Source: Sphaerisporangium sp.
GTDB taxonomy: Bacteria > Actinomycetota > Actinomycetes > Streptosporangiales > Streptosporangiaceae
Reading direction: 5' to 3'
NCBI GenBank assembly: GCA_025964675.1
Contig: JAOPYI010000036.1
Coordinates: 1-55,407 of the forward strand
Length of the DNA: 55,407 bases
Every line of letters begins with the position of its first letter. The stretch's first letter is position 1. A model generated the notes under the pieces. The model worked only from the letters and a program-made list of their open reading frames with translations. It had not been told where the DNA came from and ran no database searches. The position numbers were made by a program, and so were the translations under genes. Shown here in pieces: positions 34,244 to 55,394 of this stretch.

Positions 34244-37120
34244 ATGAAGCGTGTGGCTGGAGATCGAATACTTCTCGACCGCGGCGAAACCGCGCTGGAC
34301 TTCCGTGTCCTCGGGCCGCTGCAGATCATGATGTCTGGACGGGAGGTTTCCCTTCCCGGTCAGTATGTGCGTCGGCTGCTGGCCGTGTTGCTGCTGGCAG
34401 CGGGCGGGCCGGTCGCCGAGGGGCAGCTTCTCCACCATATCTGGGAGACGTCCCCCGCCAGCCTGCGCGCCCTGCGAACCACGGTCTCGCGGCTCAGATC
34501 GTGGCTGCGAGAGGAGGTAGGGCTGACGCAGGCCGTCATGCACACAGGGTCCGGTTATGTGCTGCAGGTGGAGCCCCATCACGTGGATGCGGGACGGTTC
34601 CTGCATCGCTTTCAGGCCGCCACCCGCAATCCCGATCTCGAACTCGGGCTCGAGTCGATCGTGAGCGCGCTAGGAGAGTGGCGTGGAGCCGTGCTCGAGG
34701 GAGCACCCGACAGGCTGCGCGATCACCCCGCCGTCCAGAGCCTGGAGCGCACCCGGGTCGCCTGCGTGTACAAGGCCGCCGACCTGGCGCTTGGGCTGGG
34801 GAAACCGGAGGCGGTCCTGCCGTACGTGCGAGAACTGGCCGCCGCCACGCCCTACGACGAGCCCCTCCAGGCGCGGTTCATCAGGCTCCTTGGCGAGAGC
34901 GGCTGTCGTGCGGAGGGGTTGCGCCGCTTCGAGGAGGTCCGGCGCAGAATCGCGGACGAGCTCGGAGTCGACCCCTCTGACGAGCTCAGGACTGCCCACG
35001 CGCGGCTGCTGGAGGATGCTCCGGCTGTCTCCAGGCCGGTCGTCGGCGATGCGCCAGGTCCCGATCGTATGACGGCCCGGGGCATCGCCTCCGAGCTGCC
35101 GATGGACGTGGCCACGTTCACCGGTCGCACGCGCGAGGTCGAGCACCTGTGCCGGTTGCTGACCCGGCCCGGCCGCAACGGGACGATCATCGCGTCGATC
35201 TCTGGGGCAAGCGGGGTCGGCAAGTCGGCCCTGGCCATCCACGTGGCCAATCGCATCGCGGAGCAGTACCCTGACGGCCAGCTCTACATCAACCTGCTCG
35301 GCTCCACTCCCAAAGTCAGACCGCTCACACCGGCCGCCGCGCTGGGCCGCCTGCTGCGTTCGCTCGGCATGGACGACCAGTCGGTGCCCGTCGGGCCCGA
35401 GGAGGCCGCGGGTCACCTGCGATCGCTGACGGCCGGCAAGCGCCTGCTGATCGTGCTGGACAACGCGCTGGACGCTGGTCAGGTGCGTGGCCTGTTTCCC
35501 GGCCGTGGCGGCAGTGCCGTACTGCTGACCAGCCGCAAGGTGCTCACCGAGCTCGACGGTGCCACCCACCTGCGGCTGGACCTGCCGTCTGAGTCGGAGT
35601 GCGTCTCCTTGTTCTCCCGCCTCATCGGTCACGAGCGAGCGCGGCTCGACGTGGAGGCCGTGGAGGCCGTCGTCCGGCTGTGCGGCTATCTTCCCTTGGC
35701 CGTGTGCATCGCCGCGGCGCGGCTCAATGCCCGCCCCACGTGGACGGTCCGTACTCTGGCCGACCGGCTGGCCACAGACCGGGACCGGCTCGTGGAGCTG
35801 CGCGTGGGTGATCGCACGATACAGGCGAGCTTCGCGGTCAGCTATCACGAACTCGACGCCGAACAGGTTCGGCTCTTCCGGCTCCTGGGCCTGCTCGCCA
35901 ACCCCGACGTCAGCGTCGGCGTCGCCGCCGCCCTGGCGGGGGTACCGGAACGGCGGGCCGAGGATGTCCTTGATGATCTCGTCGATCTGCACATGGTGGA
36001 GAATTACGCCCCCGGCCGTTACCGCATGCATGATCTGTTACGCCAGTTCGCGTTCGATCGTGCTCAGGATGAGGAAACCCCGCGGGACCGTGTCCGCGCG
36101 TTGCGTCAGGTCCTGCATTGGTATCTGGCGACGGCGCGCACCGCCTGCGTCCGCGTCAACCCCAACGCCGCCTGGCGCCTGGAGGTCGGACCGCAGGACC
36201 TGAGTCACCCGGGCCTGCCCCTGGACGACCCGCAGCAGATCCAGACCTGGACGGAGGAGGGGGCGACGACCTTCCCCATGGTCCTGCGGCAGGCCATCCA
36301 CGAACTCGACGACGGCCCGTCACTGGCGGTGGGGCTGGCCGCGGCCGTGTACCTTCCGCTGGGATATCAACGACGCTGGAAGGAACAGCTCGCGCTGGGC
36401 GAACTCGCGATCGAGGCCGCAGCGCGGACCGGTGACCTTCTCCACCACGCCGTGGTCCACGGCGACCTCGGCGACGTCCAGTCCCATCTGGGCCAGGTGG
36501 ACGAGGCGATCCCCCACCTGACGGGCTCCCTGGAGGCCTACCGCCGGCTCGGGCATCGGCGGGGAGAATCCTCGCAGCTGGACCGGCTCGCCGGCGCCTA
36601 CGGCCTGCTCGGCCGCTTCAATGAGTCCATCGGCTACTACCAGCAGGCCCTGGCGCTCGACCGGCGGCAGGGCGACCGATTCAACGAAGGGATCACGCTG
36701 AGCAACCTGGGACTTACCTATCAGAATGCCGACCGCTTCGACGAGGCGATTCGAGCGCACAGCGAGGCCATCGACATTCACCGCGAGACTGGCAGTTCCT
36801 TCGGATTAGGCAGTCTGCTGGGCAATCTGGCCGAGGCGCGGCGACTGCGGGGTCAGCCGGAGCCGGCGCTCCTGCTATACGAAGAGGCGCTGCGGGCCGA
36901 TGTCAACGCCGAGCGGTCCGGCACCTACGACGAGGCCGAGCACTGGTGGGGCCTGAGCCGTTGCTACGACGACCTCGGCGAGTCCGAACGGGCGCGGGAG
37001 TGCCGGCGTACCTCCGGTGCGATTCTCCATGGGCTTGGGCTGATCGGCGTCGAAGAGAAGCGGCTGATCGACACGCATGCCCTGCCGCCGACACCGGAGA
37101 TCATCCTCAGGAACACCTAG
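34244..37120 (+). CDS. SARP-family regulator with NB-ARC and TPR domains (AfsR-like)
   Basis: The 958-residue protein has an OmpR-type winged helix (about residues 15-110), a bacterial transcriptional activation domain (to about 270), an NB-ARC ATPase (GASGVGKSALA P-loop, RLLIVLDN Walker B, GYLPLAV in place of GLPLA) and C-terminal TPR repeats (from about 700). SARPs activate antibiotic clusters by binding direct repeats about 11 or 22 bp apart. It borders the RiPP locus, whose divergent promoter holds such repeats, so it is the best candidate activator (inference). The ATG at 34244 is 7 nt after AGGA. Confidence 0.93.
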   Translation: MKRVAGDRILLDRGETALDFRVLGPLQIMMSGREVSLPGQYVRRLLAVLLLAAGGPVAEGQLLHHIWETSPASLRALRTTVSRLRSWLREEVGLTQAVMHTGSGYVLQVEPHHVDAGRFLHRFQAATRNPDLELGLESIVSALGEWRGAVLEGAPDRLRDHPAVQSLERTRVACVYKAADLALGLGKPEAVLPYVRELAAATPYDEPLQARFIRLLGESGCRAEGLRRFEEVRRRIADELGVDPSDELRTAHARLLEDAPAVSRPVVGDAPGPDRMTARGIASELPMDVATFTGRTREVEHLCRLLTRPGRNGTIIASISGASGVGKSALAIHVANRIAEQYPDGQLYINLLGSTPKVRPLTPAAALGRLLRSLGMDDQSVPVGPEEAAGHLRSLTAGKRLLIVLDNALDAGQVRGLFPGRGGSAVLLTSRKVLTELDGATHLRLDLPSESECVSLFSRLIGHERARLDVEAVEAVVRLCGYLPLAVCIAAARLNARPTWTVRTLADRLATDRDRLVELRVGDRTIQASFAVSYHELDAEQVRLFRLLGLLANPDVSVGVAAALAGVPERRAEDVLDDLVDLHMVENYAPGRYRMHDLLRQFAFDRAQDEETPRDRVRALRQVLHWYLATARTACVRVNPNAAWRLEVGPQDLSHPGLPLDDPQQIQTWTEEGATTFPMVLRQAIHELDDGPSLAVGLAAAVYLPLGYQRRWKEQLALGELAIEAAARTGDLLHHAVVHGDLGDVQSHLGQVDEAIPHLTGSLEAYRRLGHRRGESSQLDRLAGAYGLLGRFNESIGYYQQALALDRRQGDRFNEGITLSNLGLTYQNADRFDEAIRAHSEAIDIHRETGSSFGLGSLLGNLAEARRLRGQPEPALLLYEEALRADVNAERSGTYDEAEHWWGLSRCYDDLGESERARECRRTSGAILHGLGLIGVEEKRLIDTHALPPTPEIILRNT

Positions 37121-37121
37121 G

Positions 37122-37949
37122 TCAAGAGCTGCGGTGCGCCCGATCGGCCAATTCCCGCAGGAACGACGAGATGATGCGGGCGCCGGCGCGGTCTTGTGTG
37201 AGGTTCTTGGCGCGCGCCCATGCACGGAGCGCTTCTAGATCGTTGATGCTCAGCGTGACGATGATCTGTTTCACCGACCCAGGTTTGTGCCCGTTGCCGC
37301 CGTGGCCGGCCACTTGCTGACCGGTGACCTCGGGGGTCCGGAAGTAGTCCGTTTGCTGGGCGTTGGACATGCCGGCCACGCCGGCGGCGACCTGCCGGAG
37401 TCGCTGGTCGTCGACGGTTTCGCGCCCGAAGTGGTCTTCGATCCTGAGCGCCGTCTTGAGGTCGATGTCGCCGTCTCGGACGAGCGCTTTCAACGCCGGC
37501 CTGAGCCGATCGAACTTGATGTATCTGCGGACTGTGCCGTAGGGGAGCCCGAATTTTTCCGCGACGGCTTTGACGGAACCGTACTTGTGGTAGAGGCTCG
37601 TACACGCGTCGATCAGGTCCAGCGGGCTGAGGTCCCGGCGCACGAGATTCTCGCTGATCGACAGGGCGCTCGCGACATCGTTGTCCGGTTTCTCCGCGAT
37701 GATCGCCGCCGTGATGTCGTGGGCACCGAGCCTGCGCATGGCCAGCCAGCGCCGCTGGCCGGCCAGGATCTCGTAGTATCCCTCTCTGCCCGGTAGCGGC
37801 GCGGCGATGATGGGTTCCAGCTGGCCGTGGACGCGGATGTTGTCCATCAGTTCGGCGAGGTCTTCCTCGACGTCGCGGGTGCGTACCTGCTGCGCGCCCA
37901 CCACGAGCCTGTCCAGCTTGACCTTCTCGACCCTGGCGATGGACACCAC
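37122..37949 (-). CDS. ParB/Spo0J-like DNA-binding protein
   Basis: The 275-residue protein has a ParB N-terminal domain (LMDNIRVHGQLEPIIAAPL, then EILAGQRRWLAMRRLGA), SENLVRRDLSPLDLIDAC and a helix-turn-helix (KAVAEKFGLPYGTVRRYIKF). Chromosomal ParB would sit with parA, which is absent, so this is an orphan ParB-like protein, perhaps a cluster regulator. The first of two GTGs (37949) follows GGGAGGAG. It converges on the SARP gene with a single base between the stops. Confidence 0.88.
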   Translation of the reverse strand: MVSIARVEKVKLDRLVVGAQQVRTRDVEEDLAELMDNIRVHGQLEPIIAAPLPGREGYYEILAGQRRWLAMRRLGAHDITAAIIAEKPDNDVASALSISENLVRRDLSPLDLIDACTSLYHKYGSVKAVAEKFGLPYGTVRRYIKFDRLRPALKALVRDGDIDLKTALRIEDHFGRETVDDQRLRQVAAGVAGMSNAQQTDYFRTPEVTGQQVAGHGGNGHKPGSVKQIIVTLSINDLEALRAWARAKNLTQDRAGARIISSFLRELADRAHRSS

Positions 37950-38067
37950 GGCGGACTCCTCCCTTGGCGCGGGGTCTCCGGTTCGAGCGCGGACAAGGAT
38001 GGCCGTGCCCTTCGTCGCCGACGACCCTCAGGTACGGGCTGGCCCGACTGTGGCATGAGACGTTGTG

Positions 38068-38173: not shown

Positions 38174-40051
38174 CTAACCGGGGTTCTGCGGCAGGGCCAA
38201 GGACAGGTACTTGTCGTCCTCCGAGACCATCACGCCGGATCGGCAGCAGTCGTCCAGGAACTCTGTCACGACCTCCAGCGAAAGATCGCATCCACGATCG
38301 AGCAGCTGCTGGTGGACGCCCTTGCTACTGCGCATGGTGTCGCCGCAGGCTTCGTACGCGTCACCTTGCCACCCCTCGAGTACTGCCTTGCGCGGCCTGC
38401 CCGACCGCGTGTCGATGATGCTCAGGCGTCCGGGCAGGCGCTGGTAGAACAGGACGGGCCGGTCACCGCCGGTCCAGGCGCGCTGCCATTCGGTGATCGC
38501 CGTGCTCATGAGCGCGTGCGCCTCGGGGGTAGCCGTGTCCGCGACCTCGTAGTCGAAGTAATAGGCGATCCTGGGGTGGTCCAGCTCGGGCGGATAGACG
38601 TGAGCGTAGCTGGGCTGCGGGCGGACATCGGAGATCCCGAAGGAGGACGGGTCCGTGAAGTACGGGCTGAATCGTTCGAGCCAGATACCGTGCTGGGTCC
38701 GCGGCGGTTGCATGTGGTGCAGAAGGGGGGCGAGTTCGGCCTGCTCAGCGTAGTCCGCGTCGGACTCGCCGGGGAAACCGCACAGCACGTGCCACTGCAC
38801 GGCTATGCCGTAGTGGAGCGCCCACTTCAGCAGGCGGATGTTGATGAGCTTGGTTGAGCCCTTGCGCATCAGACCCAGGACAGGGGTGCTCAGGCTCTCG
38901 ATGCCGGGCTGGATCCGCCGGATTCCCGCCCGCCGCATGAGGGCCAGCTGGTCCCTGGTGAGATTCGCCTTGACCTCGAAGAACAGGTCGAGATCCCAGC
39001 GCCGCTCGGCCAGCTCGGCGCAGAAGGAGTTCAGGTACTTCATGTCCAGGATGTTGTCCGTGGCATCGACGCGGTCCGTGGCATAGGTGCGCAGCAGATG
39101 CTCGAGTTCGGCCACGGCCCGCTGGCCGCTCTTGGACCGGTAGGCCATTCCCAGCTTGTTCAGACCGCAGAATGTGCAGTGGTGCTTGGCTCCCCACCAG
39201 CAGCCGCGCGAGAACTCGGCATGAAGCCGGATGCTCTGGCCGCCGAGGACCTGAGCCGTGTCGTACCGGGCGAGCCAGGCGAAATAGTCGTGATAGTCCG
39301 GCATCGGAAGGCCGTCGAGGTCCCGAGTACGCGGTGCCTCGCCCGGGTCGCTGTCCTCGGCTCCTTGCCGGTACACGCCGGAAATAGGCTCATGGGTGCC
39401 GGCGGCGAGCTGGTCGAGCAGCGTCGGCAGGGCGATGTCGCCCTCGCCGGACACCACGTAGTCGAGCCACCAGAGCTTTTCGGCGTAGGCGACGCCCATC
39501 CCGCCGTCGAAGTTGGCGCCCCCGAAGATCAGCGGTAAATCGGGGAAGCGGGTCTTCAGCAGGCGCCCGAGCGCCAACGACGCGTTGTTCTGCAGGAACG
39601 TGGAGGAGAATCCGACGACGTCGTAGGAGGACCAGTCGACGTTCTGCACGCAGCTCTCAAGCCATGCGGGCAGGGTATCCCGGCGATAGGTGATCAAGCG
39701 TTCGGGGGCTTCATGCCGCAGCGTGGACCAGCTCTCGGGCACCTCGGGGTATTCGGCGAAATACTCGGCCTCTGGGCGGAGGTCGCCGAAGGCCGCGTAG
39801 GAGAACAGCCACTCGCCCAGCTGGCAGAAGTGGCCGGCCTGATCGTCGATGGTGACGATCTGGTGGTAGGTCTCGTCCCCGAGCCAGGCGGCCAGGTCGA
39901 GGTTGAGATAGAGCACGTCGCAGTCGTGCCCGGACTTCCTGACGATCGACTGCAGCAGGCCGCACTGGACGGAGGGCATGTACGTCCAGGACCAGGGCAT
40001 GTTGACCAGGGCCATGCGCAGTCGTCGACGTGGCGGCAGGATGTGCTCCAC
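38174..40051 (-). CDS. B12-binding radical SAM enzyme, RiPP maturation type 1
   Basis: The 625-residue protein has an N-terminal cobalamin-binding-like Rossmann region (VNMPWSWTYMPS, VVGFSSTFLQNNASLALG, LIFGGANFDG) and a radical SAM domain whose cluster Cys are C284, C292 and C295, a CX7CX2C spacing. The SRGCWWGAKHHCTFCGLN loop is typical of the RiPP maturation radical SAM protein 1 group. It likely methylates or otherwise modifies an unactivated carbon on a peptide (known for related enzymes, inferred here). The GTG start shares one base with the upstream TAG, so it is coupled to the second enzyme. Confidence 0.88.
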   Translation of the reverse strand: MEHILPPRRRLRMALVNMPWSWTYMPSVQCGLLQSIVRKSGHDCDVLYLNLDLAAWLGDETYHQIVTIDDQAGHFCQLGEWLFSYAAFGDLRPEAEYFAEYPEVPESWSTLRHEAPERLITYRRDTLPAWLESCVQNVDWSSYDVVGFSSTFLQNNASLALGRLLKTRFPDLPLIFGGANFDGGMGVAYAEKLWWLDYVVSGEGDIALPTLLDQLAAGTHEPISGVYRQGAEDSDPGEAPRTRDLDGLPMPDYHDYFAWLARYDTAQVLGGQSIRLHAEFSRGCWWGAKHHCTFCGLNKLGMAYRSKSGQRAVAELEHLLRTYATDRVDATDNILDMKYLNSFCAELAERRWDLDLFFEVKANLTRDQLALMRRAGIRRIQPGIESLSTPVLGLMRKGSTKLINIRLLKWALHYGIAVQWHVLCGFPGESDADYAEQAELAPLLHHMQPPRTQHGIWLERFSPYFTDPSSFGISDVRPQPSYAHVYPPELDHPRIAYYFDYEVADTATPEAHALMSTAITEWQRAWTGGDRPVLFYQRLPGRLSIIDTRSGRPRKAVLEGWQGDAYEACGDTMRSSKGVHQQLLDRGCDLSLEVVTEFLDDCCRSGVMVSEDDKYLSLALPQNPG

Positions 40052-42198
40052 TACGCGTCACCTCGTATCCGAGCGGTGAGGGTAAGCAGGTCTTGTAGTC
40101 GATCGGCCGGTAAGAGGCGCTCTTCGGCGCGCAGGGTGAACACCAGCCCCGACGGCGTGATCACAGCTTGGGCCGCGCCAGGTCGGGCCTTGCCGGTTTC
40201 GCCCAGCCAGGCATTCATTGACGCGCTGGTGGCTCCGTCATGACGCTGCAGCAGGAAGTACTTGTCCCGCACAGCTACGAAGTTCGCGAAATCTTCGATG
40301 TTCGTGAAGGGGATCTCGCGTTGCGCGACGTGCGTGAGCTGGATCCGCGGTTCGCCGAAGGAGTCGTCCGGAGTGAGCACCGGCCCGAATTTCGCGAAGT
40401 AGAGCAATGTGTGTGCGGTGTCGACGCCGCCGACGAACGGCCGGTCATCGACGGTACACCTGAGGGCGACTCGCCGATTCTCGCCGATACGTTCGTCGGT
40501 CTCGCCGGCCCAGCGGTCCGCACCGTCGGGGCGTTCTCGCCAGGGCAGATAGCGTTGGATGTGCTGAGTGGCCGGAAGGGGGAGTATATCGATGTCGAAG
40601 TCATCCGGACGCTTCGCAAGTATCGATCCGGGAGTGAGGGAAAATGTGCCGATCGCAGCGATCGTCCATAGATGTTGGTGATCGACCAAGAAGTCGTATG
40701 TTCGCTCTGCCTCATCCAGCCGTTCCGTGGGAAAGCCGGTGAATCCCATCATTTGAACGCCGATGTGATGCTCTCTCAGATGGGTCAGGATAGACGGCAC
40801 CTCGGCCAGCTGAACGCCTTTGTCGATCAGGTCCAGCACGCGCTGGGAGCCCGATTCGTAGCCGAAGGAGATCGCAACGCAGCCGGCGTCCCTGAGGTGC
40901 CGCGCCATGTCGCGTTTGGGGAAGGTCCGTTCCAAGCGAAGCTCCGCGCTCCATCGTATTGATGTGCGCGATTCGCTCAACGCCTCGCAGAGCAGGCGCA
41001 GATATCTCGGCGACATCGCGTCCACCGAGAAATATAGGGTCCTGCCGATGCCGGATATGGCGCGAAGGTCCTCGATCACTGTCTCTACAGGGCGCTCCCG
41101 GGATGGGGAGGTCGGCCGATCCAGGTTCAACCCGTAGTCGCAGAATGTGCATTTGTTCCAGTAGCATCCGCGGGTCGGGCTGTAAAGGATGACCGGCTCC
41201 GGCGCCCAGTAGGAATCCCACTCCCATACGTCATAGGCGGGTGTGGGCAGCGCGCCGACGTTCTCGTAGTTGATGGGCGGCTGTGCGGGGTGCTCGCCGC
41301 GGGTGAGTATTCCGCGGATACCACCGAAATCCCGGTCGTCGTGGACGGCCCGCAAAATGTCGCAGAACGGCGATTCACCTTCCCCGGGGACGATGATGTC
41401 GGCATCCTGGAAGAGCCGCCAGTAGTCTTTCGGCTCGCGGGCGAGTCGCACGTCGTCACAGACCTCGGTTCCGCCGAACACGATGACCGCGCCGGGATCT
41501 GCCGCGCGCACCTGTCTGGCCATGCGGAGCGCGACGGGCAGTTGGCTGGTGAAGTTGACAGAGAACCCGACGACTCGCCACCGGCGTTCTCGGAGGATAT
41601 CGGCGAACGGCCCGTTGAGATACGGATCGAACGGTCCAGTGAGCCGGTCGATCACGGCGGGGTCGCACAGGTCTTGATAAGAGGACAGGCTGACGACGCC
41701 GCCGGCCAGAATGCTGAAGTCGGCGATGCTCTTCGGGACGCCGTCGAGGCAGAGCAGTTCCTGCCACGCCTTCATCACCAGGACCGCCTGCCGGTAGGTC
41801 GGATAGTGATAGAAGAATTCCTCGTTCTTGAAGATTTCGATCGCCCTGCGTACCGAATCCGCGGTGAGGGTTTCGACGGTGAGCGCGGCCTGGTAGTTGA
41901 GCTCGTCCAGCCGAGTGAGTTCGGGCAGGGATTCGATGCGCACCCGCGCCTTTTCCGCGCGGTCGATGAGGGCGCCAACCTGCTCTGGATGCGCGAGATG
42001 ATTCAGCGCGTCGATGTTCGCGTCAACGCATCGCTCACCTGTGAAGCCGGCGGCTCTGGCCGCGCCGACCAGGTAAGGGATCGAATGGTATGGCTGGGTG
42101 GGGTCGGTCAGCGGCGGATTGATCAGCAGATACGGCAGGCTGCTTTCCGTGCGGCTTGTCTGGCGAGTGACCGGCAACTCGGTAATGAAGACGGGCAT
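40051..42198 (-). CDS. B12-binding radical SAM enzyme, second
   Basis: The 715-residue protein has an extended N-terminal helical part, a cobalamin-binding-like domain (about residues 205-290, VIVFGGTEVCDD, DIIVPGEGESPF) and a radical SAM domain with cluster Cys C345, C350 and C353 (RGCYWNKCTFCDYG, CX4CX2C). A roughly 180-residue C-terminal extension follows. It is distinct from its downstream partner. The ATG at 42198 follows GGGAGG; a GTG eight codons upstream is less likely. It is divergent from the first precursor gene, across the shared operator region. Codon use is noticeably less GC-rich than in the core genes, hinting at horizontal gain. Confidence 0.88.
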   Translation of the reverse strand: MPVFITELPVTRQTSRTESSLPYLLINPPLTDPTQPYHSIPYLVGAARAAGFTGERCVDANIDALNHLAHPEQVGALIDRAEKARVRIESLPELTRLDELNYQAALTVETLTADSVRRAIEIFKNEEFFYHYPTYRQAVLVMKAWQELLCLDGVPKSIADFSILAGGVVSLSSYQDLCDPAVIDRLTGPFDPYLNGPFADILRERRWRVVGFSVNFTSQLPVALRMARQVRAADPGAVIVFGGTEVCDDVRLAREPKDYWRLFQDADIIVPGEGESPFCDILRAVHDDRDFGGIRGILTRGEHPAQPPINYENVGALPTPAYDVWEWDSYWAPEPVILYSPTRGCYWNKCTFCDYGLNLDRPTSPSRERPVETVIEDLRAISGIGRTLYFSVDAMSPRYLRLLCEALSESRTSIRWSAELRLERTFPKRDMARHLRDAGCVAISFGYESGSQRVLDLIDKGVQLAEVPSILTHLREHHIGVQMMGFTGFPTERLDEAERTYDFLVDHQHLWTIAAIGTFSLTPGSILAKRPDDFDIDILPLPATQHIQRYLPWRERPDGADRWAGETDERIGENRRVALRCTVDDRPFVGGVDTAHTLLYFAKFGPVLTPDDSFGEPRIQLTHVAQREIPFTNIEDFANFVAVRDKYFLLQRHDGATSASMNAWLGETGKARPGAAQAVITPSGLVFTLRAEERLLPADRLQDLLTLTARIRGDA

Positions 42199-42244
42199 CC
42201 CGACCTCCCGGGTTCGTTCCACAGAAAGTCTCTGTCAAGTTCGC

Positions 42245-42455: not shown

Positions 42456-42638
42456 ATGTCCAGTAATCCTCGTGACGCCCTCAATGCGGCTGGCCTGGAC
42501 AGGCTGCCGGAGACTCAGAGAATGGTCTTCGAAGGGCTGAGTGCTGAGGAATTGAGGATCGTCGGCGCGATCCAGGACCGTCTCAACGCGGCCACGCCGG
42601 AAGTCGAAGGCCAGAGCAACAATAACACCGTCTGCTAG
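42456..42638 (+). CDS. RiPP precursor peptide A, Cys-terminal
   Basis: This 60-residue peptide follows a strong AAAGGAG ribosome site. Residues 28-53 form an acidic helical leader (L28, E32, I39, R42-L43, P48, V50, G52-Q53). A similar leader occurs in the second 60-residue peptide at 45958. The 7-residue tail S54-NNNTV-C60 ends in Cys and offers Ser, Thr, Cys and three Asn for modification. With radical SAM, YcaO, RRE and flavoprotein decarboxylase genes in the same operon, it is very likely the precursor of a modified peptide. Cleavage after Gly52-Gln53 is inferred from the conserved leader ending. Confidence 0.82.
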   Translation: MSSNPRDALNAAGLDRLPETQRMVFEGLSAEELRIVGAIQDRLNAATPEVEGQSNNNTVC

Positions 42639-42649
42639 TACTTCATGAA

Positions 42650-42690
42650 ATCCGGCCCGCCGTGGTCCCCCGTGGCCCGGCGGGCCGGAT
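42650..42690 (+). terminator. 13-bp-stem hairpin between precursor A and SPASM genes
   Basis: ATCCGGCCCGCCG (42650-42662) and CGGCGGGCCGGAT (42678-42690) are exact reverse complements around a 15-nt loop. It starts 12 bp after the precursor stop and ends 19 bp before the SPASM start. Such structures act as partial terminators or 3' stabilisers, so that far more precursor than enzyme is made. Confidence 0.7.
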
Positions 42691-44062: not shown

Positions 44063-44655
44063 GTGCGGTGGACGCCGAGGGACGTAGTCTCCTCGTCGGC
44101 GCCTGCGGCGCGGCCAACGTGCTGAACCTGCCGAGCTACCTGCAGACGCTGCGCCAGGTGCCGGGGCTTCGTGTCAAGGTCATCATGACGCCCACCGCGA
44201 CGCGGTTCGTGCCCGTCCGCACGGTGCGCCTGGTGAGCGATGCCGTGTTCTGCGACGGCGAGGACAACTTCGAGCCCGGCCACGCGCGACTGGCCGACTG
44301 GGCCGACCTCTTCATCGTGCTACCGGCGACCGCGCACGTGCTCGCGCAGGCCGCGCAGGGGTACGCCGGAAGCCTGCTGACGGCGACGCTGCTGGCGTAC
44401 GAGGGGAGCGTGATCTTCTTTCCCAGCATGAACGCGGCGATGTGGCGCAAGCCGGCCGTCCAGCGCAATGTGGCGCAGCTGGCGGCGGACCGCCATCGCA
44501 TCGCCGGGCCGGTCATGACGCAGTGCTGGGAGATAGACGAAGACGGCATGCGACCAGGGCTGGGACTTCCCTCGCCGTCGCAGGTCGCCGCGATCATCAA
44601 GGACATCGTTACGACCCCCGGTATGGACCCCGGGCAGGGCGGGGAGGAATCGTGA
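44059..44655 (+). CDS. HFCD flavoprotein, peptidyl-cysteine decarboxylase type
   Basis: The 198-residue flavoprotein is like EpiD/MrsD and the CoaC half of Dfp: the conserved His in GHARLADWADLFIV (H75), then PATAHVLAQAAQG, and the PSMNAAMW substrate loop (residues 122-129). Such enzymes oxidatively decarboxylate a C-terminal Cys to an enethiol. There is no CoaB half, so it is not coenzyme A biosynthesis. Precursor A ends in Cys, an exact fit for the substrate. No lanthionine synthetase or dehydratase gene is nearby, so the enethiol would need another fate. Confidence 0.88.
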   Translation: MSAVDAEGRSLLVGACGAANVLNLPSYLQTLRQVPGLRVKVIMTPTATRFVPVRTVRLVSDAVFCDGEDNFEPGHARLADWADLFIVLPATAHVLAQAAQGYAGSLLTATLLAYEGSVIFFPSMNAAMWRKPAVQRNVAQLAADRHRIAGPVMTQCWEIDEDGMRPGLGLPSPSQVAAIIKDIVTTPGMDPGQGGEES

Positions 44656-45957: not shown

Positions 45958-46140
45958 ATGGCGTTCGACGCTCTGGCCGCGCTGCGGGCCAGTGGCCACT
46001 GGGTGGATCTTCTGACCGCGGAGCAGAAAGAGGTCATGCAGCAGCTGACCGAGGACGAGGTGGACGTACTCAACCGGATCAAACGCCGGCTCGACGAGGT
46101 GGCACCGGACGTGCAGGGCCAGGAAGTCAAGGTTATGTGA
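45958..46140 (+). CDS. RiPP precursor peptide B
   Basis: This 60-residue peptide aligns with precursor A over the leader: L30, E34, I41, R44-L45, P50, V52 and G54-Q55, plus Q23/V26 upstream. Both peptides are exactly 60 residues. The tail is only E56-VKV-M60, with no Cys, Ser or Thr, so it cannot be a usual YcaO, thioether or dehydration substrate. Glu and Lys could suit an ATP-grasp amide link, and Val or Met could suit radical methylation (both inference). Alternatively it could act as a leader-like helper or decoy. A perfect AGGTGA ribosome site precedes it. Confidence 0.75.
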   Translation: MAFDALAALRASGHWVDLLTAEQKEVMQQLTEDEVDVLNRIKRRLDEVAPDVQGQEVKVM

Positions 46141-49100: not shown

Positions 49101-49241
49101 ATTTCACGGATGGCCGGCCGATGGGCGGCCGCCACCGGCGCCGCCGCCCAGGCCGAGGCCCACTACCTCGCCAAGGGCGCCACCCTGCCGGCGCAGACCG
49201 TGCGCCGCTGGGCCGCACCCGGCAACGGAGGTGACCGGTGA
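46158..49241 (+). CDS. Class III nucleotide cyclase with AAA ATPase and TPR-like repeats
   Basis: The 1027-residue protein has a zinc ribbon (residues 7-25, CRACG...CPSCG), a class III cyclase domain with both metal Asp (D47 in FIDLVGST, D91 in KYIGDAIMAVFG), an AAA_16-type ATPase (HGEAGMGKTR Walker A, VLIWEDLHWAD Walker B) and a long helical-repeat C-terminus without an obvious DNA-binding domain. It resembles actinobacterial cyclase-ATPase regulators. It may sense ligand and make cAMP or cGMP, or act as a STAND-type switch for the cluster. The GTG at 46158 follows AGAGAGGA, 17 bp after precursor B. Confidence 0.88.
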   Translation: MPEQTMCRACGGQLSTGDRFCPSCGAVATVAETGPESRKNVVVLFIDLVGSTALGERLDPELLRNVLDRYYRVCSDRITEHGGLIEKYIGDAIMAVFGVPAAHEDDALRAVRAALSAVEDVRRLSRSREVKAELDVHCGVGSGEAAVITSPGAQLRIVGDTVNTTAHMQGAARPGEILVNAEAAQLVRGRIGLEELEPLYFKGRAEPERVWRVTSAAVAPPAPPTPMIGRSDELRQLLDYYRQAVTEARCRCVLLHGEAGMGKTRLMLEFAARTELEEALVLAGSCQPYGKDITFHPLTSIVRESMPGGLARIQQELGPEHRAYRTLSAIAGNETRVNGLPVGVEEVRWAVTRLFTVLAERQPLVLIWEDLHWADRVFLELIEDLTRELSHLPVLVLCLARDELLESQPESATEQASRIRMRPLSPVETLRLLGTLTSSAVEVAGHDDDAATARIAELSGGNPLFVTVMAGALADGDSTLPPTISALLRARIDALPAPERRTLQWAAICGREFDIDQLLALAARDGVGRDELTGVLASLARRGLVHPLGAGRHHAQTLIRDTCYAMTAKALRARWHALLSDRAPSSAEAMYHAERASLLFREVSIDEPRLPHLSAQAVRLLVEEGTTALHRRDAKAAKSLFTRALDLHTQRGRQYADITVRLSEALLARGEGDQALRVLEDGLRRIAATDRITLRLQRDIVRFRLGHLGFDAALADIARHEADLRHAADDLDWCLFHQFTAFVQLSADQVGRAESEFRKALARARRLDERWIEHRLSSALGELVQWSPATVADGLELCDQLVRNFEADRLLLIPVLATRARLLALAGRVSEARAALSAARADASALHASFPEIAINQAEAILLSLVGSNDMASRRFTEAAAMLRHQGHIQPALTLEIYAVRETLRSGRPQAARQAFAELSPAAGGTALVARARTWLHLLRAHFTCLDGRPDEGHAMARRALDAIVTDDPCLLGDAWFEFAIISRMAGRWAAATGAAAQAEAHYLAKGATLPAQTVRRWAAPGNGGDR

Positions 49242-50155
49242 CCCCACTCTGGCACAGCCCGCCGCCCGAGCACTTCCCCGGTGTGCCCGCCTGGGGCGTA
49301 CCGACCTCACAACAACCGCTCCCCGCGCTAGCCACGACCCACCTGGCGGGAGTCACCGCCGAGTGGGCGTGGGGCGGAGCCGACGGGAGCGGGATCCGGG
49401 TCTGCATCGTCGACAGCGGGGTCGACGGCAGCCATCCGCTCGTCGCCCCCATCGACGAGGCCATGACCGTTGTCTCGGAGAATTCCGACAGTCCGGGGAT
49501 CGTGCCGACCGAGGCGACTGACACGGCGGGACACGGCACGGCCTGTGCCGGCATCATCCGGTCGATCGCGCCCAAGGCCTCACTGTCGTCGATGCGAGTT
49601 CTGACCGACTCGATCGCCGGAACCGGCCGAGCGCTGCTGACCGGTCTCGGCTGGGCGATCGACTCGGCCTTCGACGTGATCAATCTGAGCCTCTCGACAA
49701 CCAAGCCGGAATTCCTCCCCGCGCTGCATGAACTCGCCGATCGGGCCTACTTCCGGCGCTCGATTCTCGTGGTGTCCGCGCACAACATGCCGATACGCAG
49801 CTTTCCCTGGTCCTTCGCCTCGGTCATCTCGGTCGCCAGCCATGACCAGCCGGACCCCTTCCTCCACTACTACAACCCCTCCCCGCCGGTCGAGTTCTAC
49901 GCCAGAGGGCTGAGCGTTCCCGTCGCCTCCCCAGGCGGCGGGCGAACGCGTAACTCCGGCAACAGCTTCGCCGCGCCGCACATCGCCGGCCTGTGTGCCT
50001 TGATCTTGAGTAAGCATCGGTGGCTCACACCGTTCCAGCTCAGATCGGTGCTCTACCAAACCGCGCGCAACGTCACACGGAATGGAGCTCGCCATGCCCC
50101 TGCAGAACTACTCACTGCCGAACTCCCATCCGGGTCGGCAGGCACCACTGACTGA
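49238..50155 (+). CDS. S8 subtilisin-like serine protease, intracellular
   Basis: The 305-residue protease has the full triad: D59 (IVDSGVDG), H99 (TAGHGTA) and S243 (GNSFAAPH), with the oxyanion Asn N183 (SAHN). No signal peptide is seen, so it works in the cytoplasm. In this setting it likely removes the leader or tail of the modified precursors, as PatA/PatG-type subtilases do in cyanobactins (inference). It starts inside the cyclase gene's stop and its 3' end overlaps the GAF gene by 62 bp. Confidence 0.92.
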   Translation: MTPLWHSPPPEHFPGVPAWGVPTSQQPLPALATTHLAGVTAEWAWGGADGSGIRVCIVDSGVDGSHPLVAPIDEAMTVVSENSDSPGIVPTEATDTAGHGTACAGIIRSIAPKASLSSMRVLTDSIAGTGRALLTGLGWAIDSAFDVINLSLSTTKPEFLPALHELADRAYFRRSILVVSAHNMPIRSFPWSFASVISVASHDQPDPFLHYYNPSPPVEFYARGLSVPVASPGGGRTRNSGNSFAAPHIAGLCALILSKHRWLTPFQLRSVLYQTARNVTRNGARHAPAELLTAELPSGSAGTTD

Positions 50156-50750
50156 GCGGCAGCTTCTGCACTCGGTGGTGGAGGTCGCCCGCCATGTCTT
50201 CGGCGCGGCGGCATCGTCGATCTTCCTGATCGACGGTGACTCGGGCGACCTGGTCTTCGAAGCCGTCGCCGGCAAAGGCGACACGCATCTGCCCGGGACC
50301 CGGTTTCCTGCGGAGACCGGCATCGCAGGCTGGGTCGCGATGAGCTGCCAGCCGGTCTATGTCGACGATCTGTCCGGGAGCAGCCAGTTCGCCCGGGCCG
50401 CCGCGGAGTCAACGGGATACGTGCCCAGCAGCCTGATGGCCGCTCCCTTGACCAGGGGAGAGGACTGTATCGGGGTGCTGGAGGTGCTCGACCCGTCCGC
50501 GGCATCCCGCAGCGAACTGGCAGACCTCGACATACTCGGACTGCTGGCCGTCCAGGCCGCCATCGGCTTGGAGATCCTGATCCGGGCACGGTACAAGACC
50601 GACGGGACCCCGCTCACCGACGAAAGCGCGATGCTGCTCGACCGCATCGGAAAAGGCATGTGCACGGCCGTCCCTGCCACTGCCGCCATGGCGGTCAGCC
50701 TGCTGAACGCGGCCGAAGAGGTTTTGACCGGTGGGCGGAACCCGCGGTGA
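50094..50750 (+). CDS. GAF-domain protein
   Basis: The 218-residue protein is a single GAF sensor domain (about residues 35-165, AASSIFLIDGDSGDLVFEAV, TGIAGWVAMSCQPVYVDD, SLMAAPLTRGEDCIGVLEV) with a short helical tail. It lacks an output domain and may bind a small ligand or cyclic nucleotide, possibly one made by the upstream cyclase. I chose the ATG at 50094 with GGAG 6 nt upstream; an ATG at 50082 is also in frame. It overlaps both neighbours. Confidence 0.85.
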   Translation: MPLQNYSLPNSHPGRQAPLTERQLLHSVVEVARHVFGAAASSIFLIDGDSGDLVFEAVAGKGDTHLPGTRFPAETGIAGWVAMSCQPVYVDDLSGSSQFARAAAESTGYVPSSLMAAPLTRGEDCIGVLEVLDPSAASRSELADLDILGLLAVQAAIGLEILIRARYKTDGTPLTDESAMLLDRIGKGMCTAVPATAAMAVSLLNAAEEVLTGGRNPR

Positions 50751-51796
50751 CGTCGCTGCTCGACCGGAGCACTTTCACGCTCACCGCAGCCGCTGATCAG
50801 CGCCGATACACTCAACCTGTCGACTCGGCCGCCGACGGATGTGTGGTCTTCTTCTCCAGGCGAGCCGATCCGGAGGTGTCAGAAGTGGCGAGACTCCTCA
50901 GCCTGCTCGGAGTACCGTTCCGCCGCATAGACGCCGACGTCCTCGGTTCGATCGAGTTCAACCTGAACGACCCGGGAGCCCTGCGCGTCGACGGGTACCG
51001 CGTGCGTGCCACGGTCTGCTGGACCCGCAGATTCTGGGCTTCGGCCATGACGGTTCCGCCGACCACGGCCGGCATCCTGATGGCGAACTCGTGGATCGCC
51101 CTCGTCCGGGAGGCACCGATGCTGGCCCCCACCGTCTGGCCAGGCCCCCGGCTCGGACTGCTGGCGCAGTTGCGCGATGCCGCGGAGGTCGGCGTACGCG
51201 TCCCCGCGACCGTCGTGACCACCGACCCGGCGGCCGTGGCCAGGCGGGTCGCCATGGAAAAGCTGGTCGTCAAGGTGCTCGACATGCATGCCGTCGAGCG
51301 GGTGCCGGGGACGCTCGACGGCCTCTTTCCCCGCATCTGGCCGCGGAGCGATCTGGCGGCGCACGACGGATCGGCGGCAACTCCACCGCTGGTCGTCCAG
51401 GAGTATGTGCGGCACAGGGCCGAGCACCGCGTCTATTTCGTCCGCGGCAGGGTGATCACCCTTGAGGTCGGCAAACCCTCCCCCGACGCGATCTGGCGCA
51501 ACCGGGAGGCGGTCCAGGTACGGGAGACGGAAAGCCTCCCTGACGTGGCCGCGCTCGTCGCCCGCCTGGCCGCGCGCTGGCGGCTCGACTTCGGCGCGTT
51601 CGACGTGCTGCTGACCGACGACGGCCCGGTGTTCCTGGAAGCCAACGCCGATGGTGACTGGCGGTGGTACGAGGCCAGAGCCGGCACGCGATCCATCAGC
51701 AGGACGATCGCGTACACGCTACGCAACCTGCACCTGTCGGCAGGCGGCCAGGTCGATCGATCGGCCATCGGCCCCCTGCCGCTGATGACCGGCTGA
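50747..51796 (+). CDS. ATP-grasp ligase, graspetide-type
   Basis: The 349-residue protein has the ATP-grasp layout: an N-terminal pre-ATP-grasp part with FFSRRADPEVSEVARLL, a lysine strand EKLVVKVLDMH, VVQEYVRHRAEHRVYFVRG, then DFGAFDVLLTDDGPVFLEANADGDWRW with the metal-binding Asp, Glu and Asn. The order resembles MvdC/D and TgmB enzymes, which link Asp/Glu side chains to Lys, Ser or Thr in peptides. It may act on E56/K58 of precursor B or amidate a C-terminus. The GTG overlaps the GAF stop. Confidence 0.85.
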   Translation: MTSLLDRSTFTLTAAADQRRYTQPVDSAADGCVVFFSRRADPEVSEVARLLSLLGVPFRRIDADVLGSIEFNLNDPGALRVDGYRVRATVCWTRRFWASAMTVPPTTAGILMANSWIALVREAPMLAPTVWPGPRLGLLAQLRDAAEVGVRVPATVVTTDPAAVARRVAMEKLVVKVLDMHAVERVPGTLDGLFPRIWPRSDLAAHDGSAATPPLVVQEYVRHRAEHRVYFVRGRVITLEVGKPSPDAIWRNREAVQVRETESLPDVAALVARLAARWRLDFGAFDVLLTDDGPVFLEANADGDWRWYEARAGTRSISRTIAYTLRNLHLSAGGQVDRSAIGPLPLMTG

Positions 51797-51817
51797 TCAG
51801 AACGGGGAACGAAACCC

Positions 51818-53110
51818 ATGGCGGACGCATCCGTACTGCTGGACCTGGCCGGCCCCTTCGGCGCAGTGGGGCCCCCACGGAAAAGCGACACCACAGGGTG
51901 GATGCCGGAGGAGTGTTCCATCTTCACCGCGTCCACCGGTAATCCGTCGGCGGTGACCGGGCCGTTCCGACCGGGCGCGCGCATCGCTCACGGCGCGGGC
52001 CGTGCGTACGGCGATCCGGACCGAGCCCGCCTGCTGGCGGTCGCCGAGGCGCTTGAGCGCTACGCCGCGCTCCTCGTCGATGACAGAAGGCTGACCCTGG
52101 CCAGCGCGGCTGAACTCGGGGGCGATGCGCTGGATCTCGATCACATACCTCGATGTTCCAGCCGGGAACTGAGCAGGCCCGGTTGCCCGATCATGGACAT
52201 CGACAAGACGCGGCCGATCCGCTGGACCGCAGCCGAGGACCTGCGCACCGGCAGGCGGGTGTTGGTCCCCGCGGTCATGGCGTTTCTGGAATTCCCTGAG
52301 CTGGACGCCGAGAATTTCTGGATACCGATATCCACCGGCTGTGCGGTGCACGCGTCTTTCGAGGCGGCGGCGGTCGCCGCGATATGCGAGGTGATCGAGC
52401 GTGATGCGATCGCGCTGACCTGGCTCCAGCGTTTGCCCCTGCCCCGCCTGGACGACAGCCGCCTCTCCGAGGCCGCACGATCGCTCATCGCCTGGTGCAC
52501 CGATCGCGGCATCACGTCACATCTGTACGATGCCACCACCGACCTCGATGTGCCCGTGGTGTACTGCCTGCAGACCACCGAGCGTACGCCGCGCGCGGCT
52601 CAACTGGTGGGCGCCGCGTGCGGCTTCGACATCCCCTTTCTGGCCGAGCATGCCCTGCTCGAGACCATGGGACTCCGGCCGGGAGTGCAAGGCCGCCGCC
52701 GGCTTCCGCGAAGGTACGCCGACTTCCGGTCGATCGACGACGACGCCGCTGTCATGGCCGCCAGAAGCAAGCGCGCGGCGTTCGGATTCCTCCTCGATGA
52801 TCTCGCGAACCGTCCTGTCTCACGGCTGGAGGCCCCGGGCCCGCGTTCGGACCACGAGCGGCTGCTGTTCCTGCTCCAGCGCCTCGCTCAGCGTGGCATG
52901 ACGACCTTGGCGGTCGATCTCACGCCGCGCGAACTACGCGAGGTCGGACACGTCGCCATCCGGGTGATCATTCCCGAACTTCAGCCCATGTCGGCCCGTC
53001 CTCTGGTGCAGTACCGCGGCCACCACCGGCTCTACACCGCGCCGGGCCACATGGGTTTTCGCACTCTGCCGGAGCATCGGCTGAACCCCTATCCCCAACC
53101 GATGGCGTGA
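51818..53110 (+). CDS. YcaO-domain peptide-modifying enzyme
   Basis: The 430-residue YcaO protein has GRAYGDPDRARLLAVAEALERY and STGCAVHASFEAAAVAAICEVIERDAIAL, which carry the ATP/Mg-binding Glu residues. It ends in a Pro-rich tail (NPYPQPMA), resembling the PxPxP end of azoline-forming YcaOs. It would phosphorylate a backbone amide to form an azoline, amidine or thioamide. No TfuA partner is encoded nearby, so thioamidation is less likely. The E1-like gene follows with overlapping stop and start. Confidence 0.92.
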   Translation: MADASVLLDLAGPFGAVGPPRKSDTTGWMPEECSIFTASTGNPSAVTGPFRPGARIAHGAGRAYGDPDRARLLAVAEALERYAALLVDDRRLTLASAAELGGDALDLDHIPRCSSRELSRPGCPIMDIDKTRPIRWTAAEDLRTGRRVLVPAVMAFLEFPELDAENFWIPISTGCAVHASFEAAAVAAICEVIERDAIALTWLQRLPLPRLDDSRLSEAARSLIAWCTDRGITSHLYDATTDLDVPVVYCLQTTERTPRAAQLVGAACGFDIPFLAEHALLETMGLRPGVQGRRRLPRRYADFRSIDDDAAVMAARSKRAAFGFLLDDLANRPVSRLEAPGPRSDHERLLFLLQRLAQRGMTTLAVDLTPRELREVGHVAIRVIIPELQPMSARPLVQYRGHHRLYTAPGHMGFRTLPEHRLNPYPQPMA

Positions 53111-53679
53111 TGACGATGGTGCGGATCGTGGCCAGTGGCGACTTCGGCTGGACCGTCGCCGATCACCTGGGCATACTTCTGAGGTACGTCGAAAGACCGG
53201 TACAGGTGGCGCGCGAGCCGATGTCCACGCCTCCGGAACGCTTCATGGCCGGTTGCGCCTTCGGCATCCGGGCTGCCTGGCGAGACATGGGAACCGAGTT
53301 CGAGACCTTCGCGAAAGCCGCGAGATCCGCGGGAGTGCCGTGGTTGCCCATCGCCCTGGGCCACCCCAACATCAGAATCGGGCCCGCCGTCGTCCCCGGT
53401 GCCGCTCCCTGCCACGCCTGCTATCTCGCCAGAGCACGCCAGCACGACACGTCCCCCAACGCCACGCTCGAACAGGCGCTTACCGCTGATACCCAGCTGG
53501 GAGTGCGCGGATTTCCGCCCCACCTGTCCATGCTCGCCGCAGGCTTGGCACTGTCGTTGATACGCGCGGCGGAGGCGGGCCGTACCGGACGGCTCATGAC
53601 GATCAACAGCCGAACCGGCGAGGTGGGCTCCTGGCGCGTGGTGCCCTGTCAAGACTGTCCGGAGTGTGATGAACGATGA
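53110..53679 (+). CDS. E1-like (ThiF-type) cyclodehydratase partner, short
   Basis: The 189-residue protein resembles the E1-like half of azole-peptide cyclodehydratases: IRIGPAVVPGAAPCHACYLARAR with one Cys pair and a closing CQDCPECDE with more Cys, probably one zinc site. It lacks its own leader-binding domain, which is encoded in the next gene, so the C component appears split. The ATG at 53110 overlaps the YcaO stop (TGATG); a GTG one codon upstream is possible. It should bind the YcaO protein and stimulate it. Confidence 0.75.
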   Translation: MTMVRIVASGDFGWTVADHLGILLRYVERPVQVAREPMSTPPERFMAGCAFGIRAAWRDMGTEFETFAKAARSAGVPWLPIALGHPNIRIGPAVVPGAAPCHACYLARARQHDTSPNATLEQALTADTQLGVRGFPPHLSMLAAGLALSLIRAAEAGRTGRLMTINSRTGEVGSWRVVPCQDCPECDER

Positions 53680-55394
53680 GCCTGTACGCATGCCGTACCG
53701 ACGGGCTGGCCTTCATACCCGTCCGCGAGGGCTATGTCGTTGACGGCGGAGACCGGCAGGAACACATCACCGGCAAGCTCGCACGGGAGTTGTTCCCGGC
53801 ATTGATCCCGTTGCTGGACGGCACCCGGACCGTGGAGGAGATCGCCGACGTCCTCGGCCTGCCTCTCGCTCACCTGCGGGGAGTCATGGCCCTGCTCGCC
53901 CAGCGCGATCTGGTACGGCTGCGGGCGACTCCGCCGCGCGAGCATCGGAGCCCACCCATGAAGACCTTCCTGGAACGCTCGTATCCCTCCGGTTGGGCGG
54001 GCGGCATCTGGCGACGGCTTCAGGCGTCGAACGTCGCCGTCGCATGCGGCCAACCCCTGACCGACCTGCTCGTCGGCCTCCTCGAAGAATCAGGATGCGG
54101 CCTGCTCGGTCCCGGCGAAGGAAGGCCCGACCTGACCATCACCGTCATGCCAGGTCGCGCGGCGCCCGTCCTGCCCATCCGCGTCACATCCACCGCCGTC
54201 TCGATCGGGCCGCTGCTCCAGCCCGGTGACTCCGCCGAATATGACGCGGCCTCCGGGGAGTGCGATACCGCGCTTGCCGGCGTCGCCGCGGGCGTCATCG
54301 CCGGCGTCGCCCTGCGCATGCTCGGCGGCCACGGAGGGCAAGAGCCCGTCATCGATGTGCTGGACTCCGGTGGTCTGGTGCGGGTCGTGGAGCGACCGGC
54401 TCCCGGGCGAGCCGGTCGATCAGAGCCCTGCCGGCACATGGCCAGACGCCATCTGACCGAACCCCGGCTCCCGCTACGGCGTAGCAGCCAGCCGCTGGTC
54501 CGCACGATGTCCCGGATCCTGGACGACCTGGACCGCGCGCCGGCCGCGGGTCATGCGGGTGCCGTGCGCGCCTACCTGCTGGGTGACCTGCACGATGGTC
54601 GCCGGACGTACTTCGTCGATCCGGCCGCGGGCGCTCTGGTCGAACTCCCCGGTCCGGTCAGGCACGCCTACGAAACGCCCACGCTGGTGTTGACGCATGA
54701 CGTATGCGCAGAAAGGCGACTGCTTCCCGGCGACACCGGTCTGATCCTCGCCCAGCTCGCCGGCAACGCCGACGCTGCCGGCTGGCGGGTACGGGCCATC
54801 GACTCCTGCGTACAGCTCGATCTCGATGTGGGCTGTGAACAGGTGGCCGCTGTTGCCGAGCTCACACCCGTTCGGCCGAGAGCCCGCCCGGCCAGGCGTG
54901 TCCGGCCGCGCGCCGAGTGCCATTTCGGTGACGAGCCGCTCGACGGAGCTCGGCTGACGCGAGTGATCGTCCGCGCCCTGGCGAGGGCCGAGGAGGCCTT
55001 CGGCGACGGGCGCCTGGACTGCGCCATGTACGCCCGAAAGGTCAAGGGCACGCCGTTCGGCTCGACGCGGTGGATGGGCGAACCTGATCAGCCGTGCGAC
55101 CTGGACCTGTCGAGCCTTGAGAGCCATATGCGCGATCGGGGGTTGTCTCCGGCGGCGCTGCTGCTGTTCACCGCGTACATCACAAATGATCGTCTACGCA
55201 TGAAGGCGGCCATGGCGGCGGCAACGGTCCGCCTGCTGGCCGCCGACGCCGGGATGGGCGCCGTACTTTTCGCCCGGCTTCCAGAGGAGTTGCCCTTCGG
55301 ATACGGATCCGACCGTCGAGTGCTGTACGGCTGTGCTCTTGGATCCCCATCCACCGAGCTGTCCGGTCCGGTCTCGAGCCGGGTCGTGTGGTGA
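53676..55394 (+). CDS. RRE-containing leader-binding fusion protein with degenerate E1-like and nitroreductase-like parts
   Basis: The 572-residue protein starts with a winged-helix RRE-like domain (about residues 30-85: ELFPALIPLLDG, TVEEIADVLGL, VMALLAQRDLVRL) that binds RiPP leaders. A degenerate E1-like segment follows (SIGPLLQPGDSAEYDA, where the Cys pair is gone). The C-terminal half has two stretches resembling SagB/McbC nitroreductase halves (LLPGDTGLILAQLAGNADAAGW; RLLAADAGMGAVLF then YGCALGSP), a weak match. It starts inside the previous stop (ATGA) and ends 13 bp before the window edge. The operon may continue beyond. Confidence 0.7.
   Translation: MSLYACRTDGLAFIPVREGYVVDGGDRQEHITGKLARELFPALIPLLDGTRTVEEIADVLGLPLAHLRGVMALLAQRDLVRLRATPPREHRSPPMKTFLERSYPSGWAGGIWRRLQASNVAVACGQPLTDLLVGLLEESGCGLLGPGEGRPDLTITVMPGRAAPVLPIRVTSTAVSIGPLLQPGDSAEYDAASGECDTALAGVAAGVIAGVALRMLGGHGGQEPVIDVLDSGGLVRVVERPAPGRAGRSEPCRHMARRHLTEPRLPLRRSSQPLVRTMSRILDDLDRAPAAGHAGAVRAYLLGDLHDGRRTYFVDPAAGALVELPGPVRHAYETPTLVLTHDVCAERRLLPGDTGLILAQLAGNADAAGWRVRAIDSCVQLDLDVGCEQVAAVAELTPVRPRARPARRVRPRAECHFGDEPLDGARLTRVIVRALARAEEAFGDGRLDCAMYARKVKGTPFGSTRWMGEPDQPCDLDLSSLESHMRDRGLSPAALLLFTAYITNDRLRMKAAMAAATVRLLAADAGMGAVLFARLPEELPFGYGSDRRVLYGCALGSPSTELSGPVSSRVVW

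Follow-up and report, generated by a model that had tools for sequence, protein, structure and literature searches.

A composite RiPP cluster in Sphaerisporangium sp. with two precursor peptides and a predicted radical route to an AviCys-like ring

Contig C16 of Sphaerisporangium sp. (55,407 nt, hereafter the window; genome of 7.77 Mb, 99.5% complete) carries at positions 34244-55394 a gene cluster for ribosomally synthesised and post-translationally modified peptides (RiPPs). With slightly better than even confidence, we interpret it as a composite cluster with two separate precursors, A and B, of which precursor A would mature through a SPASM radical S-adenosylmethionine (SAM) enzyme and an HFCD flavoprotein to a ring resembling aminovinylcysteine (AviCys). 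Gene content, conservation and co-occurrence were observed directly, and from these the chemistry is predicted throughout.

Results

Precursor A and its core enzymes

The two precursors have a common leader and different tails (EGQ-SNNNTVC in A, QGQ-EVKVM in B), and both exceed the 30-bit cut-off of the model NF045560 ('aroma-sacti cluster domain'). Among 15 distinct precursor A tails, the window included, Asn(-4), Leu/Val(-2) and Cys(-1) alone are conserved in all, and the Asn-x-x-Cys core motif is found in 15/15. Val occupies position -3 in six of these tails, and two (8/22 copies) hold no Ser, Thr or Cys between E-G-Q and the terminal Cys. In this tally the tails of L087, L088 and L089 were entered minus their first residue, which is Ser, Thr or Cys in none of them. 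Distant relatives of the SPASM enzyme also adjoin N-x-x-C peptides. The HFCD protein, closest to MrsD, keeps the expected His and the PxMNxxMW motif in 11/11 aligned sequences, and C353, C358 and C361 of the second B12 radical SAM enzyme (B12b) are invariant in 7/7. Among the 16 cluster proteins scanned there was neither a dehydratase or lyase nor a kinase-like TvaE partner; the scan covered the window and not the extra genes of its relatives.

In the scheme that we propose, precursor A would be the product peptide. The SPASM enzyme would form an i,i+3 thioether from the Cys(-1) sulfur to Asn(-4), most likely at the beta carbon as in the ranthipeptide NxxcA, and the HFCD enzyme would oxidatively decarboxylate the same terminal Cys, which would leave an aminovinyl thioether at the end of the ring. 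Radical chemistry instead of Ser/Thr dehydration might thus lead to a ring of the AviCys-like type; we propose a ring without a dehydratase because the cluster was found to contain none and because the tails of some relatives offer nothing that could be dehydrated. B12b would C-methylate the peptide in all loci, and B12a would do so a second time in some of them. In the window lineage, the YcaO protein, its E1-like partner and the last protein, a putative RiPP recognition element (RRE)-oxidase, would convert residue -3 to an azoline or azole. Cleavage close to the conserved E/Q-G-Q is predicted for the subtilase, and export of the product for the MFS protein. The structure results fit this scheme without deciding it.

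Two further loci concern the SPASM family. On a short contig of Streptomyces murinus, a 51-aa frame ending LNNIC (L106:2663-2818) precedes a 47% SPASM relative by about 1.2 kb; the frame was seen after the tail rule had been set and is excluded from the counts, and no HFCD match was found on that contig. A Methylomagnum plasmid (L153) encodes CefA, a peptide with Cys at every fifth position, together with a TIGR04463 SPASM enzyme and an adjoining RiPP radical SAM C-methyltransferase, so that similar enzyme types are paired there with a different type of peptide.

Distribution and modularity among relatives

The leader model NF045560 matched in 6/396 genomes across the phylum and in 58/345 genomes of the order (57 over cut-off), and five close relatives in the order traced through this leader search each carry a cluster homologous to that of the window. 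Among named genomes, a SPASM alignment retrieved 26 loci, 20 with and six without HFCD; the five order relatives are among them (L087, L088, L089, L090, L107) and were counted once. In a class-wide search with a SPASM profile, only the genome of the window matched (1/394, E <= 1e-60). The SPASM, HFCD, MFS and B12b genes occur together in 20/26 named loci, and these 20 also hold the cyclase in 18 cases (a fragment in L098), subtilase and GAF in 16, and ATP-grasp in 16 (again a fragment in L098). Three of the four HFCD-bearing loci lacking subtilase and GAF end at contig ends, and the fourth is L098, where the locus is either degraded or misassembled; in L096 precursor A could not be read. The YcaO set was found in 4/20 HFCD-bearing named relatives (5/21 loci with the window) and B12a in 3/20 (4/21).

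G408, G404 and G570 keep the gene order of the window over the whole run that starts with B12b and closes with the last gene. Where Streptomyces and Streptacidiphilus have both halves on one contig, the genes lie on two divergent strands, with ATP-grasp, GAF, subtilase, cyclase and precursor B on one and precursor A, SPASM, HFCD, MFS and B12b on the other. The precursor A cluster of S. melleum (G613/L089) lacks precursor B, the cyclase and ATP-grasp, at two places flanking the subtilase/GAF pair, and precursor A and its enzymes remain; another contig of this genome carries precursor B, cyclase, subtilase, GAF and ATP-grasp.

Judged by gene content across these genomes, the cluster is made up of three separable parts. 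The core is precursor A, the SPASM enzyme, the HFCD flavoprotein, the MFS exporter and B12b; the companion module is precursor B, the cyclase/ATPase, the subtilase, the GAF protein and often ATP-grasp. The YcaO/E1-like/RRE-oxidase set and B12a occur in few of the relatives and are lineage-specific add-ons. An earlier note on this DNA had treated the left and right halves as one unit, and in 18 of the 20 loci with the four shared core genes the cyclase belonging to the other half is indeed present, at least in part. That note had counted homologous loci with the halves always apart as evidence against itself; we looked for this among the relatives and found the halves kept together across families, so the objection falls away for the core. 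Its interpretation survives in part: this is a RiPP cluster with linked halves, and the YcaO set, B12a and the precursor B module are separable from it.

The companion module

Precursor B, the cyclase/ATPase and often ATP-grasp would form a companion module that serves several RiPP clusters, sometimes in trans. A purpose-built leader profile returned 107 peptides from genomes of the order, and 106 were classed after the sub-cut-off genome G520 had been left out: eight of class A, 45 of class B (defined by a short E-phi-K-phi-phi tail), 34 of class C (StsA-like) and 19 of class D (GGLLF/GGWCW type, defined after inspection). Class B tails are near-uniform (ELKLV in 23/45), and 44/45 class B peptides lie within 22 kb of a cyclase homologue. 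Many loci that have precursor B and its cyclase contain no HFCD homologue. Each of the 34 order genomes in which an A or C peptide was found contains B or D as well, and 23 genomes hold B or D only (Fisher 4e-32, a value that ignores relatedness). In nine genomes, seven of them from one genus, one or more of the A or C peptides lie on a different contig from any companion or 3.4 Mb away (G473). The module adjoins StsA-type sactipeptide genes as well, and a test of one such locus confirmed the StsB maturase; no HFCD homologue was listed near class C peptides.

The window precursor B tail contains Glu and Lys and no Cys, Ser or Thr. These two residues might be joined by the ATP-grasp ligase through a side-chain crosslink, the ester or amide linkage that marks graspetides, or the tail may have a signal role; ATP-grasp genes are often found in the neighbourhood of precursor B, which suggests modification.

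The same genome holds a second locus with the companion module, an StsA/StsB sactipeptide cluster (C262, ~3000-25000; L014/L015) that also encodes PqqD-like, P450-like, methyltransferase, TfuA-related (below cut-off), YcaO and ATP-grasp proteins. At L145, L121, L131, L132, L061, L080, L063 and others, companion-position precursors with clearly divergent, hydrophobic tails (IGGLLF, GGWCW or GAGLW) lie near cyclase homologues, and these precursors may possibly belong to separate product classes. Four leader-family precursors stand in tandem ahead of one cyclase homologue at L063:9731-10675 (G545). PADLOC matches to Pycsar cyclases and subtilases were taken as shared domains only.

The YcaO set

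The C-terminal LNPYPQPMA (PxPxP) of the YcaO protein is identical in 5/5 sequences. A thioamide-forming role was considered and rejected because no TfuA model matched in the cluster and PxPxP is present; the partner protein is of the TIGR03882 type. The last protein was considered as a possible azoline dehydrogenase, and it matched no sequence family. In a profile search of solved structures it matched the RRE of PbtF (0.001), ranked after a designed repeat protein that owes its score to five weak stretches added together. A low-confidence fold model of this protein favours an RRE plus an oxidase and matches the ThcOx/McbC oxidases. Residue -3 of precursor A is Thr in the window and Cys in the other YcaO-bearing loci.

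Cluster layout and neighbouring features

The cluster comprises a SARP regulator, a ParB-N protein, B12a, B12b, precursor A and the SPASM, HFCD and MFS proteins in its left part, followed by precursor B, the cyclase/AAA/TPR protein, subtilase, GAF, ATP-grasp, YcaO, the TIGR03882 protein and the RRE-like last protein (Table 1). The earlier note had described a single compact RiPP region with tightly packed rightward genes. Both points stand: all the enzymes that it named are present, together with an exporter, a cyclase/ATPase and a GAF protein, and 10/11 rightward junctions overlap or span <=25 bp with the chosen starts. The sole larger gap, between the precursor A and SPASM genes, contains a strong hairpin, possibly an attenuator or processing site, and a hairpin is present in this gap in 6/6 loci folded (of 21; z from -1.2 in L087 to -4.9). 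No cobalamin riboswitch was found, nor any Rfam match at the gathering threshold, within 34000-55407.

The SARP regulator has a 64% homologue in the Nonomuraea locus (G570/L087). The ParB-N gene, whose product is probably a StrR-type pathway regulator, is present in 5/5 close relatives at varying cluster ends. Truncation of the cluster by the contig end (55407) was considered and set aside: in five relatives no gene of the window cluster other than the ParB gene lies past the last one. To the left are genes for a Helicase-C domain protein (31565-33949) and an FGE-sulfatase-domain protein (30257-31060), probably unrelated.

Table 1 Predicted features of the cluster in the window
Feature	Position	Strand	Evidence
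SARP/AfsR-like regulator (BTAD, NB-ARC, TPR)	34244..37120	+	Pfam BTAD 2.9e-24, NB-ARC 5.2e-9; AfsR model below cut-off
ParB-N domain protein	37122..37949	-	PF02195 5.2e-14
B12 radical SAM C-methyltransferase 1 (B12a), accessory	38174..40051	-	TIGR03975 627.9 bits > 281.85
B12 radical SAM enzyme 2 (B12b), core	40051..42222	-	PF04055 and PF02310 over cut-off; 20/20 HFCD-bearing relatives
Precursor A, 60 aa, tail SNNNTVC	42456..42638	+	NF045560 52.9 bits > 30
G+C-rich hairpin, precursor A/SPASM gap	42650..42690	+	-40.8 kcal/mol, z -4.26
SPASM radical SAM enzyme, predicted N-x-x-C thioether synthase	42710..44062	+	CX3CX2C present
HFCD flavoprotein, predicted C-terminal Cys decarboxylase	44059..44655	+	MrsD 2.3e-33
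MFS exporter, core	44652..45950	+	PF07690 1.3e-28; 20/20 HFCD-bearing relatives
Precursor B (companion peptide), 60 aa, tail EVKVM	45958..46140	+	NF045560 83.3 bits > 30
Class III cyclase/AAA ATPase/TPR protein	46158..49241	+	PF00211, PF13191 over cut-off; TOMM kinase/cyclase model below cut-off
Subtilase, predicted leader peptidase	49238..50155	+	PF00082 2.5e-29; kept in S. melleum beside A, B missing
GAF-domain protein	50094..50750	+	PF13185 2.9e-14; usually adjoins subtilase
ATP-grasp peptide ligase	50747..51796	+	TIGR04187 1.8e-22, below cut-off; E-x-N motif in 8/8 aligned
YcaO, azoline-forming type	51818..53110	+	TIGR03604 289.6 bits > 219.25
TIGR03882 leader-binding/E1-like partner of YcaO	53107..53679	+	48.7 bits > 36.9
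RRE-like domain, then probable azoline-oxidase (nitroreductase-type) domain	53676..55394	+	

Discussion

Alternative readings

The ring on precursor A could be made differently. On the classical Avi(Me)Cys route, as in lanthipeptides, linaridins and thioamitides, Thr, Ser or Cys at -3 becomes a dehydro residue to which the enethiol made by HFCD adds; the closeness of our HFCD protein to MrsD, the Thr(-3) and Ser(-7) of the window tail and the Cys(-3) of the other YcaO-bearing loci would suit it. We nevertheless consider it quite improbable, given that the partner enzymes it calls for were not found among the 16 cluster proteins scanned and that some tails carry Val(-3) or nothing dehydratable at all. 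An alpha-carbon thioether of the sactipeptide type, formed by the SPASM enzyme to Asn(-4) or another acceptor and combined with HFCD decarboxylation, is less improbable, although we still regard it as unlikely. The best fold matches of the SPASM enzyme are to entries whose titles name the formation of thioether bonds in sactipeptides, and the companion module is shared with StsA-type peptides; however, StsB is absent from the 25 best of the 54 families matched by the enzyme, both precursors score below the cut-off of the StsA model NF045559 (22.4 and 35.8 bits, cut-off 75), and the N-x-x-C motif is that of NxxcA, a C-beta case.

The two tails could also be handled in other ways. The view of the earlier note, that the full set of enzymes, ATP-grasp and YcaO among them, modifies both tails of 5-7 residues, agrees with the tight operon spacing and with the gene order shared by three relatives, but it fared badly among the relatives, which show separable modules: the YcaO set is missing in 16/20 and B12a in 17/20, S. 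melleum jointly lacks precursor B, cyclase and ATP-grasp in its cluster, and the window precursor B tail offers YcaO or HFCD no Cys, Ser or Thr. We judge it very improbable. A serious contender, if short of an even chance, is that precursor B is no natural-product precursor and instead serves in regulation or signalling, being recognised by the cyclase/ATPase and the GAF protein and cut by the subtilase. Its short, near-uniform tails, the near-constant cyclase neighbour and the presence of B or D in every genome with A or C, even at a distance, point this way; against it stand the frequent ATP-grasp neighbour, the subtilase and GAF genes that the S. melleum precursor A cluster retains without precursor B, and the fact that no regulatory target is known.

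Several observations weigh against the radical route that we prefer for precursor A, or against its additions. The SPASM enzyme scores 194.4 bits against TIGR04463, below the cut-off of 525, and its fold match cannot separate C-alpha from C-beta chemistry. HFCD enzymes of the classical kind use a Cys with a free thiol as substrate, which bears on the order of the SPASM and HFCD steps on one Cys. In CefA, beside a more distant SPASM relative, 0/28 Cys lie in N-x-x-C, and the precursor frames at distant loci were picked by hand from open-frame lists. The likeness to NxxcA, as far as the source on that system goes, lies in the motif and not in a sequence comparison with NxxcB. The presence of YcaO covaries with precursor A residue -3 and with one HFCD motif residue, that of PATA-x (counts uncorrected for relatedness), and the tail NNNNTVC occurs in Streptacidiphilus L103 at a locus without YcaO. 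The ATP-grasp protein reaches 79.9 bits against TIGR04187, whose cut-off is 350, and S. melleum has a weak ATP-grasp-like stretch beyond B12a (27.7% over 83 aa, E 0.007).

Novelty and significance

Searches of open-licence papers gave no description of this cluster, nor of the combined chemistry on one C-terminal Cys, and no characterised class with the whole set, in agreement with the earlier note. Each chemistry has precedent; the combination fits known RiPP chemistry varied, with a fair chance that it forms a class of its own. The fuller proposal, which we put forward tentatively and at not quite even chances, is a dehydratase-free aminovinyl-thioether route (Asn(-4)/Cys(-1) crosslink, then HFCD) with B12 C-methylation and an optional azol(in)e within four residues, beside a companion module that otherwise unrelated RiPP clusters would share, even in trans. 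If correct, an AviCys-like ring, the C-terminal feature of several bioactive peptides, would be reachable radically from undehydratable tails. The joint occurrence of HFCD, SPASM and B12 radical SAM genes in at least 20 other sequenced actinomycetes would then be accounted for, and natural loci with and without YcaO or the second B12 enzyme would allow each step to be assigned.

Comparison with known systems

Branch 6 of a 2022 survey of ATP-grasp loci (PMC8939145) contains, in the portion of the paper available, complex loci with SPASM, adenylate cyclase and YcaO, mostly with no precursor identified. Our cluster resembles them in combining ATP-grasp, SPASM, cyclase and YcaO, a likeness of gene content and not of branch membership, whereas HFCD and B12 enzymes are present in our cluster only, relative to those loci as described. 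The companion module may point to short precursors in ATP-grasp/cyclase/SPASM loci of this kind, with membership of that branch not assumed. The StsA/StsB sactipeptide clusters (NF045559, NF045574; StsA/StsC are described in the accessible part of PMC12710340) have a related aroma-sacti leader and an adjoining companion module, but precursor A lacks their CxCG-WSG core and is paired with a different SPASM enzyme.

AviCys lanthipeptides, linaridins, thioamitides and kintamdin (PMC9415263, as excerpted) share with the cluster an HFCD flavoprotein and a C-terminal Cys; the cluster differs from them, so far described, in having no dehydratase, lyase or kinase-like partner among its scanned proteins and, in some relatives, undehydratable tails. 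In contrast to thioamitides, its YcaO partner is TIGR03882 and not TfuA. The YcaO sets of linear azol(in)e, thiopeptide and cyanobactin clusters likewise have a SagD-type YcaO with PxPxP and a TIGR03882 partner, and the cluster further resembles such sets in an RRE-like domain akin to PbtF and a ThcOx/McbC fold match from the low-confidence model; here, however, the YcaO set is accessory. NxxcA is a ranthipeptide whose SPASM maturase forms a C-beta thioether at an N-x-x-C motif (Caruso 2019, via the relevant section of review PMC8326336). The cluster likewise has a SPASM enzyme, Asn and Cys three residues apart and a single thioether predicted between them, but, compared with NxxcA as that section presents it, its Cys is C-terminal and paired with HFCD, B12 radical SAM and, in some loci, YcaO enzymes.
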